The notes below the pieces were generated by a model. That model worked only from the letters and a program-made list of their open reading frames with translations, did not search any database and had not been told where the DNA came from. Below, in pieces: positions 11,704-25,605 of a stretch of 28,323 nt of DNA. Both the position numbers and the translations under genes were made by a program. The DNA is from a virus, in IMG/VR virus record IMGVR_UViG_3300031841_000008, positions 1 to 28,323 of that record; one strand, written 5' to 3'. Numbering within the stretch: position 1 is the first letter of the stretch; each line of letters starts with the position of its first letter.

Positions 11704-12612
11704 ATGGCCTTTGCACAGGGTTCACGTTCCAGTCTGTCGTACATTGTAGAAAGCACTTTCGGTACGACACCTGCTGGTAACTTCACTAATTTACCTTTTT
11801 CTACTCATTCACTAAACCTATCTAAAGACCGTGTTGCAGGTAACGACATTCAGTCAGACCGTATGCCACGTGTTGACCGTCACGGTAACCGTCAGGTATC
11901 TGGTGACATTGCTGTCGATCTGCGTGATGCAGACTACGACGATTGGTTAGAAGCTGCCATGCTAAACACATGGTCAACTAACGTACTTAAAGTTGGCACA
12001 ACACCTAAGTTCTTTTCTATCGAAGACTATGCTGCTGACATCGACCAAGCACGTTTGTTCACAGGCTGTACAGTAAACACAATGGGTGTTTCACTAGCAC
12101 CTAACCAGATGGTAACAACAACCTTTGGTGTCGTTGGTAAAGATATGACAATCGGAGCAACAGAGAAGACACAGGATGCAGCATCTGGTGCAGCACCTTT
12201 TGATGCTTACTCTGGTGATTTAAAGATTGCCGATAGTGGTTCAACTCTAGCATCTGCTGCTATTGTCACTGGGCTAGACTTCACAGTCACTAACGGTTAT
12301 GCACCTACATTTGTTATCGGTGATGACTCAGCACCAAGCCTAGAGTTTGGTCGTGCAGAAGTAGAAGGTACGCTATCAGCATACTTTGAAGATGCAGCAC
12401 TAGTAAACCGCTTTATCAACGAAACCGAAACTGCACTTGAGGTTCAAGTCGGTGACGGTACAAACACAATGACATACCTATTCCCACGTGTGAAAGTAAA
12501 CTCTGCTGATGTGGGTGTAGATGGTCCTACAAGTCGTGTAGTATCTATGTCCTTCGTTGCTCTATATGACACAACAGAAGCGACAAACCTAAAGATCACA
12601 CGATCTGCGTAA
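11704..12612 (+). CDS. Major tail (tube) protein
   Basis: 302 aa, ATG 11704 with a TAGGAGA site. The start 'SSLSYIVESTFGTTPAGNFT' and then 'LPFSTHSLNLSKDRVAGNDI', 'SDRMPRVDRHGNRQVSGDIA' and 'YDDWLEAAML' are the marks of tail tube proteins of the Phage_tube_2 type. The protein is beta-rich, with acidic Gly/Asp turns, and ends with LKITRSA. It follows the tail terminator and precedes the tail assembly chaperone pair and tape measure gene. No sheath gene is nearby, so the tail is non-contractile. The gene is followed by an inverted repeat that may end or stabilise the transcript. Confidence 0.8.
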   Translation: MAFAQGSRSSLSYIVESTFGTTPAGNFTNLPFSTHSLNLSKDRVAGNDIQSDRMPRVDRHGNRQVSGDIAVDLRDADYDDWLEAAMLNTWSTNVLKVGTTPKFFSIEDYAADIDQARLFTGCTVNTMGVSLAPNQMVTTTFGVVGKDMTIGATEKTQDAASGAAPFDAYSGDLKIADSGSTLASAAIVTGLDFTVTNGYAPTFVIGDDSAPSLEFGRAEVEGTLSAYFEDAALVNRFINETETALEVQVGDGTNTMTYLFPRVKVNSADVGVDGPTSRVVSMSFVALYDTTEATNLKITRSA

Positions 12613-12696: not shown

Positions 12697-13095
12697 ATGG
12701 ATTTAAAAGACTTAAAACCTAAAAGTGATACTGTGGATGTAGAGATTGTACATCCTAGTACAATGGAACCTCTAAAGAACGAAGATGGTTCTATAATGAC
12801 AATTACTATGTATGCTCCACACTCAAAGGAGTATAAAGAGGTAATTCACGAACAAACTAACAAAAGACTAAAGCAATCTGCTAAAAATAAAAAGGTAGAG
12901 ATTACAGCCGAAGAGTTAGAGCAAACAGGTTTAACATTGTTGGCTAAAACTACTAAAAAGTGGAACATAACCTTTGGTGGGGAACAACCTAAGTTTTCAG
13001 TAGATAAAGCAGTAGAAATCTACGATGAAGTCTTCTGGATACGTGATCAGATAGAAGAAGCAGTTAGCGACTCTCTGGATTTCACGAAGCCGTAG
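12697..13095 (+). CDS. Tail assembly chaperone, short form (gpG-like)
   Basis: 132 aa, ATG 12697 with an AAGGAGA site. The protein is acidic and Lys-rich, with DVEIVHPSTMEPLKNEDGS and ITMYAPHSKEYKEVIHEQTN near the N-terminus, as in tail assembly chaperones encoded between the tube and tape measure genes. It ends DSLDFTKP at TAG 13093-13095. The next open frame (-1) begins inside this gene and has no good start codon, so a fraction of ribosomes probably slips to make a longer G-T-like product. It should coat the tape measure protein during tail assembly and be absent from the virion. Confidence 0.7.
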   Translation: MDLKDLKPKSDTVDVEIVHPSTMEPLKNEDGSIMTITMYAPHSKEYKEVIHEQTNKRLKQSAKNKKVEITAEELEQTGLTLLAKTTKKWNITFGGEQPKFSVDKAVEIYDEVFWIRDQIEEAVSDSLDFTKP

Positions 13096-13436
13096 TACAA
13101 AGACTTTGCGATTGGGCAGAGCATACCTTCAAACTAGACAAACCTAGTAGTGGTGGTACTACGGAAAGAGAACACCTTGAACAAGTTGAAAGGCAAACTG
13201 GACGTAAGGTACAAGGATTGGAACCTAAAGAAAGATTTCCATCTGAGATACAACACATCTGGTTTGCCTTTATAAGTTTAAGTAATTCACGATCTGCTGG
13301 TTTTAGTGGACCTAATCCTTTGACCTACACTGAGATAAAATCTTGGATGGAATTAACTAATACGCCTCTTAGGTCTTGGGAAGTTGAAGCAATAAAACGG
13401 TTAGATTCCGTTTATATAGGAGTTGCACATGGATGA
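13083..13436 (+). CDS. Tail assembly chaperone extension (gpT-like, made by frameshift)
   Basis: This frame is open from 13068 (after TAG 13065-13067) to TGA 13434-13436, in the -1 frame relative to the upstream gene. No ATG or GTG occurs in frame before FHEAVVQRLCDWAEHTFKLD. A TTG at 13218 would cut off this plausible part. I therefore place the entry at about 13083, after a slip near GATTTC (13078-13083), giving a fusion of about 246 aa. The rest (LEQVERQTGRKVQG, PSEIQHIWFAFISLSNSRSA, TYTEIKSWMELT, WEVEAIKRLDSVYIG) has the 'W..F..L...R' and 'PLTYTEI..W..L' layout of C-terminal chaperone segments. It overlaps the tape measure start by 8 bp. The slip site is not a canonical heptamer, so the exact mechanism is uncertain. 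Confidence 0.6.
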   Translation, partial: HEAVVQRLCDWAEHTFKLDKPSSGGTTEREHLEQVERQTGRKVQGLEPKERFPSEIQHIWFAFISLSNSRSAGFSGPNPLTYTEIKSWMELTNTPLRSWEVEAIKRLDSVYIGVAHG

Positions 13437-15681
13437 CATCCAGTTAGTGATGAAAGTAGATACAGCACCCGTTGATCGTGCTGTCAGAGTCATGGACAAC
13501 TTAGAAGCTGAGTTACGTGATGTAGAAAGGGCTATGGATCGTGGCTTAATTACAGAACGTCAATTTAATGCTGAAACAAGAAGGTTAAACTCTTCTTTAA
13601 ACCAGTTAAAAACAGCAGCCAGAGGATCGGCAAAAGACTTTAGAGTATTTGAGAAGTCAGTCTACGGTTCTGGTAAAGCAATGCGACAAAAAGAAATCGC
13701 AATGCAACAGGCTGGCTATCAGCTACAAGACTTTATCGTGCAGGTCCAAGCAGGTACTAACCCACTAATTGCGTTCTCACAACAGGGTTCACAGTTGGCA
13801 GGTTTTTTTGCTGGGCCTTGGGGTGCTGCTATTGGTCTTGGTATTGCTGCGCTTGGTGGCCTTGGTACTGCTTTGTTAGGTACTAGAAACCAAGCACAAT
13901 CTTTACAAGAGACTATTGATAGTGCTGCCGATTCTATAAAAGGTTGGAAAGATTCTGTAGACCTAGCTAATGAACCTACAGCAAAGATAGGGCAACAGTT
14001 TGGCGGGTTAGCTAAATTTGTACTAGAAGCTAGACAACAGGTAGCAGAGTTTCGTAGAGAAATTGCGCAGATGCGTTTTGATCAAGCCTTAGACAAACTT
14101 ATGTCTGAGTACGTATCTCAACAAGGCGCAGGTGCTAGAGGCGCACGAATAGCTGGGCAGTTTGACCTTAGTAGAGAATACTTCTTGTCGATTAAACGAG
14201 AAAAACGTACTGGTGTACGTAGGGAAGCAACCAACATTGTAGACCAACTTGCCTTTTTGCAAGGTGGTGAGGGTAGAGAAGACCCAGCGAATCAACTAAG
14301 TTCGCTAAACAGCATCATAAACTCTATGCAGAAACTCTCTGAGATGAAAGAGGGTAATAAGGAAGCTGAATTAGAGATAATCCAACATTTCATGGATCAA
14401 CGTGATTTGATCTTTCAAATGAACGGTCTTACACAAGATCAGATTAACACAAAGCAAGCAGGTTTAAATAAGCTACAGCAGATACAAACTGATGCTATGG
14501 CTATGGAAGCTGAGTTAGCAGAAGAGGCTAAACAAGCTGCAAAAGATGCTAACACTATAAGAACCGCCCTGTCATCAGCTTATACTTTACAACGTATAGC
14601 CGACGAAGAGAAGATCAGAGAAATTGAAAATGACAGGTTAAAAGCTAAGTCTGCTATGGACGCTGCCGCCCTTGAAGCAACAGCTCAAAGGGCAGAGGAA
14701 GAGTATGCCGCATATCAAAGAGGTATAGATCAAAGGTATGAAGGTGAAGCTGCACTATTTAACCAAGCTGTAAAAATATCTGACGAACTCTTAAAGAAGA
14801 TTGAAGATGACGCAGAAAAAGCTGCACGTGCTTATGAAAACGCATTTAACGCTAGTTCTTTCTTGTTTGCTAACCGTTTTGCTGATGAAACAGCACTAAT
14901 GGCAATGGACGTTAGCCCTGCTAAAACTAAGACTAAGAAAAAATCAGGTCGAACACCAGCACAAGAACTTAATGATTACATGAAGAACCTTGAGAGAACC
15001 GTCAAGCTAGAGCAAAAGCAGGTTGGCGTATCTCAAGAGGTAGCTAGAACACTTGAACTACGTGAAGAGTACGAGAAACGTGGACTAAAGGTTAATAACT
15101 CTAGAATAGATGCTTTGGTAAAAGAAGAAGAGGCTCTTCGTAAAGCGACAGAACTACAAGAGAAACATACAGCCAGAGTTGACATGATAGGTGATGCCTT
15201 TGGTGATATGCTGATGGGTATTGTAGATGGTACAATGAAAGCTGATGAAGCATTCAAGAACTTTATGTACAACATTATCAAGCAACTTTACCAAGAGTTA
15301 GCTATTGACCCAGCAGTATCATTCCTCAAATCATTCCTACTCGCAGACGGTGGTGTTATGTCACGTGGACGTATTACGCCATTCGCTTATGGGGGTGTCG
15401 TAAATGGTCCTACCGTATTCCCAATGGCTAACGGTATGGGACTTATGGGCGAAGCTGGACCAGAGGCTATTATGCCACTCAAGCGTGGACCCAACGGTAA
15501 ACTAGGTGTCGAAGGTGGTGGTGGGGTTACTGTCGTCCAGAACATCAACGTATCTACTGGTGTACAACAAACTGTACGTACTGAGATCAAATCGCTAATG
15601 CCACAGATTGCAGAGGCATCTAAAGCAGCCGTTGCTGATGCTAAACGTAGAGGCGGTTCGTATGGAAGGAACTTTGCATAA
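13429..15681 (+). CDS. Tape measure protein
   Basis: 750 aa from ATG 13429, chosen over TTG 13423 because AGGAG (13418-13422) lies at good spacing from the ATG. The start overlaps the upstream stop by 8 bp. The N-terminal 100 residues are helical (VMDNLEAELRDVERAMDRG, QFNAETRRLNSSLNQLKTAA). A hydrophobic segment follows at about 120-150 (LAGFFAGPWGAAIGLGIAAL). The centre is long Ala/Glu/Lys-rich coiled coil, and the C-terminus has GEAGPEAIMPLKRGPNGKLG, the conserved tail of tape measure proteins. It sets tail length and helps DNA entry. At about 0.15 nm per residue, a tail of roughly 110 nm is expected (inference). Confidence 0.85.
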   Translation: MDDIQLVMKVDTAPVDRAVRVMDNLEAELRDVERAMDRGLITERQFNAETRRLNSSLNQLKTAARGSAKDFRVFEKSVYGSGKAMRQKEIAMQQAGYQLQDFIVQVQAGTNPLIAFSQQGSQLAGFFAGPWGAAIGLGIAALGGLGTALLGTRNQAQSLQETIDSAADSIKGWKDSVDLANEPTAKIGQQFGGLAKFVLEARQQVAEFRREIAQMRFDQALDKLMSEYVSQQGAGARGARIAGQFDLSREYFLSIKREKRTGVRREATNIVDQLAFLQGGEGREDPANQLSSLNSIINSMQKLSEMKEGNKEAELEIIQHFMDQRDLIFQMNGLTQDQINTKQAGLNKLQQIQTDAMAMEAELAEEAKQAAKDANTIRTALSSAYTLQRIADEEKIREIENDRLKAKSAMDAAALEATAQRAEEEYAAYQRGIDQRYEGEAALFNQAVKISDELLKKIEDDAEKAARAYENAFNASSFLFANRFADETALMAMDVSPAKTKTKKKSGRTPAQELNDYMKNLERTVKLEQKQVGVSQEVARTLELREEYEKRGLKVNNSRIDALVKEEEALRKATELQEKHTARVDMIGDAFGDMLMGIVDGTMKADEAFKNFMYNIIKQLYQELAIDPAVSFLKSFLLADGGVMSRGRITPFAYGGVVNGPTVFPMANGMGLMGEAGPEAIMPLKRGPNGKLGVEGGGGVTVVQNINVSTGVQQTVRTEIKSLMPQIAEASKAAVADAKRRGGSYGRNFA

Positions 15682-22305: not shown

Positions 22306-22628
22306 GATGGATACTTCTGACCCTATTATTATCTAGTTGTGGACTTACATCCCTAATTCCCACTGGTGGGACTAATGTAGCTGCAAATACACAGGTAGGA
22401 CAAGAGAACTACCAAGGTGTCACGACAAATGTAGATAAGTCTGTTAGACCTGTCCTAAGACCAGAAGGTCCCGTAGAGACTGTACAACAGGACAACAGTG
22501 TGACAAACATATCTGAACTAGACCCCCTACTGCTAATCCTTTTGGTGCTTGGGTGGCTTGCTCCTAGCCCCTCAGAGATAGGTAGGGGAATCCTTAAACT
22601 ATTCCGTCGAAGAAGAATAGAATACTAA
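22302..22628 (+). CDS. Lipoprotein with C-terminal membrane segment (u-spanin candidate)
   Basis: 108 aa, ATG 22302 with ATGA overlap. The N-terminus MRWILLTLLLSSCGL has a lipobox (LSSC) with the lipidated Cys at residue 13. Mature residues 14-72 are polar, with no long helix, and a second hydrophobic stretch (LDPLLLILLVLGWLAPSP, about 73-90) ends in a basic tail (FRRRRIEY). An outer-membrane lipid anchor plus an inner-membrane segment in one protein is the layout of a unimolecular spanin, which joins and fuses the two membranes at the last step of lysis. It is the final gene before the terminator. Confirmed spanin activity is not available from sequence. Confidence 0.6.
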   Translation: MRWILLTLLLSSCGLTSLIPTGGTNVAANTQVGQENYQGVTTNVDKSVRPVLRPEGPVETVQQDNSVTNISELDPLLLILLVLGWLAPSPSEIGRGILKLFRRRRIEY

Positions 22629-22645
22629 CCCCCCAGATACTAAAG

Positions 22646-22680
22646 AACCCCCTAGGTTAATTCCTAGGGGGTTTTTTTTG
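22646..22680 (+). terminator. Rho-independent terminator of the late unit
   Basis: An 11-bp perfect stem, AACCCCCTAGG (22646-22656) with CCTAGGGGGTT (22663-22673), encloses the 6-nt loop TTAATT and runs into eight Ts (22672-22679). It lies between the convergent transcription units. On the minus strand the stem is followed by TTCTTT, so weak two-way action is possible. Confidence 0.9.
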
Positions 22681-22683
22681 TGT

Positions 22684-22830
22684 CTACTCTTCTGATAGAC
22701 CTAATTTGTTCATGCACATAGCCGTACCTTCATACAGCATTTCTATGTCGGCCTCTGCTTTTGTTATCTTACGTAGGCAATATGCATTGGCTAGTAGGCT
22801 GATCAGAAGGATACCTTCGATTACAGTCAT
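22684..22830 (-). CDS. 48-aa membrane protein
   Basis: ATG at 22828-22830, stop TAG at 22684-22686. The start overlaps the DUF3310 gene stop by 4 bp (ATGA), so translation is coupled. The protein reads MTVIEGILLISLLANAYCLR, then KITKAEADIEMLYEGTAMCMNKLGLSEE in two parts (KITKAEADIEML, YEGTAMCMNKLGLSEE). An N-terminal membrane segment (residues about 3-19) precedes a charged helix. It is the last gene of the minus-strand unit, 4 nt before the terminator. No family is recognised. Confidence 0.6.
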   Translation of the reverse strand: MTVIEGILLISLLANAYCLRKITKAEADIEMLYEGTAMCMNKLGLSEE

Positions 22831-23556: not shown

Positions 23557-23731
23557 CTTTTCTCCACATCAACTCATGTAAGAGTTTTTTCTGCTCATAC
23601 TCTGACATTATACACCAATCACGTATTTCGTCAATGGTCCTCATGCACCCTGCACAATAACTGTGTTCAATACGACACACCTTTATGCAGGGCGACTTAA
23701 CAGAGCCTATGTTAGGTCTACGATTTCGCAT
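23531..23731 (-). CDS. DUF1289 family protein
   Basis: 66 aa from ATG at 23729-23731 (GGGGA lies just upstream), or 71 aa if the ATG at 23746 is used; both overlap the nrdJ end. The core SPCIKVCRIEHSYCAGCMRT, followed by IDEIRDWCIMSEYEQKKLL, is the DUF1289 signature: SPCI.vC.....yC.GC.Rt.dEI..W..ms..e. The four conserved Cys probably bind a metal (zinc or Fe-S). The family is common in proteobacteria and its function is unknown. It lies directly after nrdJ; a redox or metal link to the reductase would be speculation. Confidence 0.75.
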   Translation of the reverse strand: MRNRRPNIGSVKSPCIKVCRIEHSYCAGCMRTIDEIRDWCIMSEYEQKKLLHELMWRKDETRKKEV

Positions 23732-25605
23732 ACGTCCCCAGAACATGCCATTGTCTGCATACCTGCTGTATTGTCTTCTTGTTCGTAATCAGACAGTTTA
23801 GACCAGTCAATGTCTTTAGGCATCAACGACGACAAAGTATCATAGTCTGATTTGTCGCAGTCCTGATAGGGTGCTTGTTGATAAGTATGATCTGAGTGTG
23901 GCAAGAATGACACACCTGACATCTCGTCAAAATGCTCATACACAAACGCACCTACAGATACCCATTCAGAATCACGTACTGACACAGTAATGCTAGGCTT
24001 ATGCTCACACCAGTGTCGTTGATACGTCAGCCACATTTCTAGCTGTTCGATAGCTGTCATATCGTTACGTGTTATAGCACCTGCTGGGGCTTTCTGTGGG
24101 AAGCTGAATACTGTCGTGTTATCAGGCTTCATCACATCAGGCTCATTAGGTACACCCTGATCAATCAGGAACTTGGTTAGGGGGTCTTTGTTGTCACCTC
24201 TAACAGTACGGATGTAATAAGGGCTGTGACGAGCGTGTATCCCACTAGCAGAATCAACGAGTTGGGAGACAGTGCCACTAGGTTTGACACAAGTGATAGC
24301 AGCAGAGTGAGGGATACCAAGACGTTCGCTCCATTCAGCATTTGTAGTAATCGCAACATTTTTAAGATGCTCCAAAGTTTTGGCTAACCCAGCATTAGCA
24401 CTGGTCATTAGCGGATTGTCCATGATGCCTGTTAGACTTACACCCAACAGACGCTCTTCTTCCGTATTATCACGCCAATCCTTAGAGAGGTACGGAAACT
24501 TTGTATAGGTAGATTGAATCGTACCTAAGATAGTCGCATATTTTACCTTACGTTCTATGTCTTCTATATTGTCAGTAGCACGTATTACGCACTCAGTAAG
24601 GTTGCAGAACTGCGCATTTTTGAGGATGATCTCACTACACGGATTCGTCCCGAAGTCACTGTCTGGATCACGACGACCATTCTTTGCAGCTTGCTTCTGT
24701 GACGCTTGACGGTTAAAGATGCCACGTTCACCTGACTTACTTTCGATCAGGGCTGTCCACTCACGCATGAATGTCTCTGCATCTGGCTTATCTGTATAAG
24801 CGACAGAGTTGTTAGCCAATGCACGATGACCGTAGTCAACATACCACTGACCAGACTTAGCATAACGCATCTTGTCGTCTGATAGGTTAGACAAACTAAT
24901 CATAGCACTACGGCGTACACCACCTACTACGACAATCTCCCCGATCTTACACATAATGTCGTGACATTCAATGGACGACAACTTACGGCCTGTAGCATTC
25001 AAGAACTTGTCGATAGTAAAGTTAAACAAGTCTACTAGTGGTGCTGGTCCTGATGCACGACCACCAAAGGTCTTTAATCTTGAACCTGCTGGACGTACTA
25101 ATCCAATGTCCCACTGTGGAATTTCACCTGACCACAACAGTGCTAACAACTGACGGTATGCTTTAGCCCAACCTTCTTTGCTGTCCTTAACTACAATCGT
25201 TGTCTCAGACTTGAATAGACGTTCTGGTACTTCTGGTAGCTTCTGAACATACTGACGTTCAACACTGAACCCTACCCCCGTGCCACACAACAGGATAAAC
25301 ATAGCCTCGTCAAATCGCTTGGGCTTGTCTACAGCTACGTAAGAGCAATTATACATACAGGTATTGTCACGGGCTGCTGCTGGTCCAGCGGTCATCATAG
25401 ATCGCATAGATGGCATAACCTCTAGTGACAGAATTGCATCACGAATATCTTTGATGTAGCTATCGTCACCTGCTATTGGCTTAACAATATTGTCGATGTA
25501 ACGGTCAACTGTCTCTGACCAAGTTTCACGCTTCTCGCCAGTCCAACGAGCATAACGTGATAGTGCAATAAAGTTTTGATAGGGGGTAGGGAGCATATTG
25601 TTCAT
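23707..25605 (-). CDS. nrdJ: Adenosylcobalamin-dependent (class II) ribonucleotide reductase
   Basis: 632 aa, ATG at 25603-25605 with an AGGAAG site. It reduces ribonucleotides to deoxyribonucleotides with a B12-derived radical. NPCSEIILKNAQFC contains the thiyl-radical Cys (C323) in the NPCSE motif and its partner C334, 11 residues on, the same spacing as C408/C419 of the Lactobacillus enzyme; N321 and E325 are also present. C87 (NTCMYNCSYVAV) is the likely third active-site Cys. The C-terminal C621 and C626 (CSGDVC) are the shuttle pair. MPSMRSMMTAGP and KPSGTVSQLVDSASGIHARH are also family marks. No split, intein or intron is visible. It is shorter than the Lactobacillus protein (about 739 aa), as phage forms often are. 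Confidence 0.92.
   Translation of the reverse strand: MNNMLPTPYQNFIALSRYARWTGEKRETWSETVDRYIDNIVKPIAGDDSYIKDIRDAILSLEVMPSMRSMMTAGPAAARDNTCMYNCSYVAVDKPKRFDEAMFILLCGTGVGFSVERQYVQKLPEVPERLFKSETTIVVKDSKEGWAKAYRQLLALLWSGEIPQWDIGLVRPAGSRLKTFGGRASGPAPLVDLFNFTIDKFLNATGRKLSSIECHDIMCKIGEIVVVGGVRRSAMISLSNLSDDKMRYAKSGQWYVDYGHRALANNSVAYTDKPDAETFMREWTALIESKSGERGIFNRQASQKQAAKNGRRDPDSDFGTNPCSEIILKNAQFCNLTECVIRATDNIEDIERKVKYATILGTIQSTYTKFPYLSKDWRDNTEEERLLGVSLTGIMDNPLMTSANAGLAKTLEHLKNVAITTNAEWSERLGIPHSAAITCVKPSGTVSQLVDSASGIHARHSPYYIRTVRGDNKDPLTKFLIDQGVPNEPDVMKPDNTTVFSFPQKAPAGAITRNDMTAIEQLEMWLTYQRHWCEHKPSITVSVRDSEWVSVGAFVYEHFDEMSGVSFLPHSDHTYQQAPYQDCDKSDYDTLSSLMPKDIDWSKLSDYEQEDNTAGMQTMACSGDVCEIVDLT

Follow-up and report, generated by a model that had tools for sequence, protein, structure and literature searches.

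Here we describe, in a 28,323-nt stretch of DNA from an uncultured marine phage (hereafter the window), two overlapping open reading frames, A and B, that very probably constitute a tail assembly chaperone gene expressed through a programmed −1 ribosomal frameshift of the lambda G/GT type. This reading is based on the −1 relation of the two frames, the localization of the slip to a short tract, a recurring downstream stem, and the chaperone families and folds of the products. The two frames lie between the tail tube and tape measure genes, in the order tube–A–B–tape measure (Table 1). This gene order, together with the PF18906 and PHROG matches of the neighbours, agrees with the original prediction that a lambda G/GT-like frameshift was to be expected here. 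The boundaries that it gave for both frames and for their 28-nt overlap all hold, as does the length of 246 aa for the A–B fusion. The tape measure gene has an ATG with its own AGGAG upstream; frame B has no comparable start. Elsewhere in the window, ribonucleotide reductase domains are matched on the − strand at 23707–25605; the insertion domain of the B12-dependent class is among them.

Table 1 Features of the A–B locus and its neighbours (window coordinates)
Feature	Position	Strand	Remarks
Tail tube gene (context)	11704–12612	+	PF18906 Phage_tube_2, E 3.7e-48
Gene A, short tail assembly chaperone (G-like), 132 aa, zero frame	12697–13095	+	ORF
−1 open frame B (T-like)	13068–13436	+	Post-slip part from 13083 to the stop at 13434–13436
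Slip heptamer G_GAT_TTC	13077–13083	+	Conserved tract, GAT, frame switch of selection, −1 stops of relatives
Stem 1, 5′ arm CCGTAGTAC	13090–13098	+	6 nt past the heptamer
Stem 1, 3′ arm GTACTACGG	13156–13164	+	
Stem 2 (distal hairpin), 5′ arm	13189–13205	+	
Stem 2 (distal hairpin), 3′ arm	13255–13271	+	
Tape measure gene (context)	13429–15681	+	ATG at 13429; PHROG tail length tape measure families

Relatives of A and B were taken from IMG/VR and from phage records. In a first set, B lay in the −1 frame in all 156 sequences having both ORFs. The full set comprises 301 loci, which overlap and include many near-copies (190 are distinct); for distant loci, A was taken to be the upstream ORF of 70 codons or more that overlaps B. 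B occupies the −1 frame relative to an upstream ORF that it overlaps in 299 of the 301 loci and another frame in none, the remaining two having no qualifying upstream ORF within the stretch examined. The −1 split is thus not a product of chance, and a second ORF in the −1 frame, devoid of a start of its own, is a conserved trait of the relatives.

The products of A and B belong to tail assembly chaperone families, B strongly and A through its relatives and its fold. B matches PF23812 (Phage_TAC_18) with an E value of 6.5e-16, above the curated cut-off, and so do 22/22 B homologues. PHROG 313 ('Tail assembly chaperone') is matched by 11 of 23 A homologues (best E 4.5e-20) and weakly by the window's own A (E 0.0034). 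The predicted fold of A (pLDDT 83) resembles phage tape-measure and tail-assembly chaperones, and in that of B (pLDDT 91) helix 1 starts directly after the slip residue. Both models match the same longer phage proteins, for example the tape measure chaperone (268 residues) of Escherichia phage Seurat, which supports a fusion. Neither A nor B showed detectable sequence similarity to solved chaperone structures (PDB sequence profiles), and a Foldseek search of the PDB with the A model gave no significant match. A Pfam match of A to Cas6 fell below the family cut-off and was ignored.

The heptamer GGATTTC occurs only once on the + strand of the 28.3-kb record, at the junction. Relatives predominantly carry G_GAT_TTT, and G_GGT_TTT, G_GCT_TTT, G_GTT_TTT, A_AAT_TTT/C, A_GAT_TTT, A_GCT_TTT and T_AAT_TTT are also found; as close relatives mostly have G_GAT_TTT, the TTTC end in the window is a local variant. 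The same junction in distant phages is occupied by T_TTT_TTC or by sites of the GGGAAA type. The Asp codon ahead of the tract is GAT in 129/129 cases, the Phe codon is TTT in 143 of 146, and T_TTY is present in 294 of 299 loci; of the five others, two have GGGAAA-type sites and three are A-tract contigs in which gene A is unsure. Loss of the TTTC tract in relatives, which would have counted against the predicted site, is therefore not what the comparison reveals. Of the 190 distinct loci, 176 have the zero-frame stop four codons past the slip codon. Codon +1 is variable when read in the zero frame (Thr or Met) and conserved as Tyr when read in the −1 frame (56/61), and upstream of the tract the −1 frame often contains stops, a pattern indicating that selection switches frame at the tract. 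In one locus (L019) a −1 stop directly precedes TTT and in another (L261) it lies one codon further upstream, so that in neither can the shift occur earlier. Conservation of T_TTY and GAT, the frame switch and the abutting −1 stops thus give good support to slippage at GGATTTC, as originally proposed.

The heptamer is, as also proposed, outside the standard X_XXY_YYZ pattern: its first triplet is GGA in place of GGG, and the canonical pattern requires three identical bases. Some relatives do have such a triplet (G_GGT_TTT, A_AAT_TTT/C, T_TTT_TTC). X1 equals X2 in 183 of the 190 distinct sites, in line with re-pairing by the P-site tRNA too, and on the tree changes in X2 accompany changes in X1, with only three or four independent events, too few for significance. 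The same −1 shift might instead be made by the Phe tRNA alone, slipping on T_TTY with little weight on the preceding codon, a variant that we consider unlikely. It would accommodate the variety of preceding codons (GAT, GGT, GCT, GTT, AAT and TTT), and Z_ZZN tetranucleotides are described as the minimal −1 site (PMC5009743). Some relatives have sites without P-site re-pairing, namely T_AAT (L019), A_GAT and A_GCT (L274), and T_TTY stays in place where re-pairing is this poor; these sites, which break the X1 = X2 rule, suggest that T_TTY is the essential part of the slip site. Against slippage by the Phe tRNA alone stand the prevalence of X1 = X2 and the joint changes on the tree, few as the latter are.

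Independent translation of B, from TTG 13218 or from a non-standard start codon, is very unlikely. The first ATG, GTG or TTG of frame B is the TTG at 13218, and the first ATG is at 13347. The original prediction of no usable second start was right in that no ATG or GTG precedes 13218, but it overstated the case: TTG 13218 lies in frame and is conceivable as a start, and the annotation of the isolate CRP-6 lists B as a separate hypothetical protein that starts with a TTG 21 codons from the beginning of the frame. However, the first start codon is found at the place of TTG 13218 in only 33 of 190 homologues, and the position of the first possible start varies across about 90 codons, which makes independent initiation unlikely; a consistent, well-placed start, which would have spoken for a separate gene, is not seen in the homologues. 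A start at TTG 13218 would also lose helices 1 and 2 of B and the beginning of the Pfam domain, whereas the residues upstream of it are conserved, and it would explain neither the abrupt switch of frame at T_TTY nor the stem. In Roseobacter phage CRP-6 gp44 (L159, 4426–4731), the annotated internal TTG sits in a conserved FKL stretch; the start given for gp44 is probably an annotation error within the −1 frame.

Slippage by +2, or transcriptional slippage at the T run, is also highly improbable. Frame alone does not distinguish −1 from +2, but a +2 shift would skip the codon right after TTT, the very codon at which the −1 frame conserves Tyr. Polymerase slippage usually needs runs longer than three or four T, and the run here is of that length and so too short. 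In the distant contigs L302–L304 (TAAAAAAAAATAG) and L300 (TAATTTTTTTTAA), where gene A was assigned by inference, the overlap is only 13 nt and, from one stop to the other, consists almost entirely of nine A or eight T in a row; a homopolymer frameshift or transcriptional slippage is possible in these contigs, judging by their sequences. An artefact of sequencing or assembly that divided a single gene is a negligible prospect, already refuted, for although the window is a single metagenomic contig, the same split occurs in hundreds of independent contigs and in CRP-6.

A structured RNA lies a few nucleotides downstream of the slip site, as in programmed −1 signals. The original prediction identified the slip site and overlooked this structure. 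In the window it is a 9-bp stem (stem 1) with a spacer of 6 nt, and the 137-nt stretch containing it folds better than all shuffles (z −3.1). Most relatives have a stem that begins about 6–8 nt downstream of the slip site, with differing sequences. The pairs of stem 1 covary in two clades, one of them that of the window, scoring higher than every one of the 500 shuffles and higher than slid controls; RNAalifold recovers the stem unprompted, and its pairing register differs between clades. Synonymous-codon shuffles, which keep the protein, weaken the fold (mean z −2.15, 61 sequences), and the anchored pairs exceed the shuffle mean in 59/61 sequences, with no excess in the other two. Along the fused gene, a strong effect of synonymous shuffling is seen only at the slip site and at one further place, stem 2. 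Rfam gave no match for 12900–13450. Two other stretches, at about 22561–22770 and at 12721–12850, fold unusually well for their G+C content, as assessed on the window sequence alone.

Stem 2 is a long hairpin that is stronger than stem 1, with a z of −4.24 in the window and a mean z of −3.64 against synonymous shuffles, and it is 95.6% paired across 36 sequences. Where an Arg codon changes from AGG to AAG (Lys), the partner Ala codon changes from GCC to GCT in five of the six sequences with an Ala/Thr codon at that place; the sixth has ACT. Stem 2 accounts for the codon conservation seen about 84–145 nt downstream. A pseudoknot between the loop of stem 1 and these conserved codons, considered by eye, was therefore dropped. 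In the CRP-6 clade (L159, L255), inspection finds no stem 2 and a stem near the slip site that is still present, and on this comparison stem 2 is probably dispensable for frameshifting. Its role is a matter for guesses, among them frameshift tuning, mRNA processing and control of tape measure expression. A broader proposal, which we put forward tentatively and hold to be rather less than probable, is that a large marine phage lineage combines an imperfect G_GAT_TTY site with a compound RNA signal, in which the register-shifting stem 1 is joined by a distal hairpin (14–20 bp, about 106 nt downstream), the latter tuning either frameshifting or what becomes of the tape measure message.

A Shine-Dalgarno-like upstream stimulator is an optional part of bacterial −1 frameshift signals. 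About 16 nt upstream of the heptamer, many relatives have GAGGAGG (for example, L120 and L191) and the window has only GAAGAAGC. GAG is found at codons −9/−8 in 183 of 273 cases, compared with 706 of 1,418 elsewhere in A. The GAGGAGG of the relatives could be a stimulator of this type.

Under the favoured lambda G/GT-type frameshift, we infer slippage itself, its efficiency, the re-pairing of both tRNAs and the roles of the chaperones as follows. Most ribosomes would translate A and stop at its zero-frame stop codon, yielding the short chaperone. A minority would pause at stem 1, whereupon tRNA-Asp and tRNA-Phe on GAT TTC (13078–13083) would slip back by one base and re-pair on GGA TTT. The shifted ribosomes would then read the −1 frame to its end and produce the A–B fusion, joined at ...SDSLDF-HEAVV.... 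If the analogy to lambda holds, binding of the tape measure protein may fall to the A part and recruitment of tube subunits to the B part.

Three things follow from this locus. One gene pair provides a natural series of slip sites, with G_GAT, G_GGT, G_GCT, G_GTT, A_AAT and T_TTT before T_TTY, in which the pairing rules of bacterial −1 frameshifting are directly testable. A widespread marine phage gene, which the CRP-6 annotation divides between two hypothetical proteins, receives a corrected annotation. Two conserved RNA structures, stems 1 and 2, are brought to light.

Programmed −1 frameshifting of a tail chaperone is a well-known process, and the slippery sequence described here is unusual, not wholly new in kind. 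In systems of the lambda G/GT type the short protein and a low level of the fusion are both made, and their ratio is needed for tail assembly. The window resembles phage lambda in the order of tube, short chaperone, −1 overlapping frame and tape measure, in the small overlap towards the 3′ end of the first gene and in a second gene that has no start; it differs from lambda and the counterparts in other long-tailed phages in its G_GAT_TTC site, theirs being a canonical heptamer. Distant homologues in Vibrio, Klebsiella, Salmonella, Xanthomonas, Rhizobium and Pasteurella phages share a homologous B, the −1 overlap and the same junction, but they use canonical T_TTT_TTC or GGGAAA-type sites, and the overlap is often longer. 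A literature search, with most subscription journals outside its scope, found no report of a GGATTTT slip site in phage tail genes. PRFect names a 'twoonefour' motif that, judging by this name, fits GGATTTT and not the GGATTTC of the window (PMC10885494). The suggestion that the window's site may be a new slippery type is borne out in its departure from X_XXY_YYZ but goes too far, as G_GA and G_GU sites are already listed: the former for insect-specific flaviviruses, umbraviruses, dianthoviruses and mesoniviruses, the latter for T7 gene 10 in bacteria (PMC5009743). T7 gene 10 is similar to the window in being read by bacterial ribosomes through an imperfect first triplet of the heptamer (PMC5009743), but it is a capsid gene and has GGU, not GGA. 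The G_GAU_UUU of umbraviruses and related RNA viruses is the same heptamer as that of the window's relatives (PMC5009743), although it operates there on eukaryotic ribosomes and in an RNA polymerase gene.
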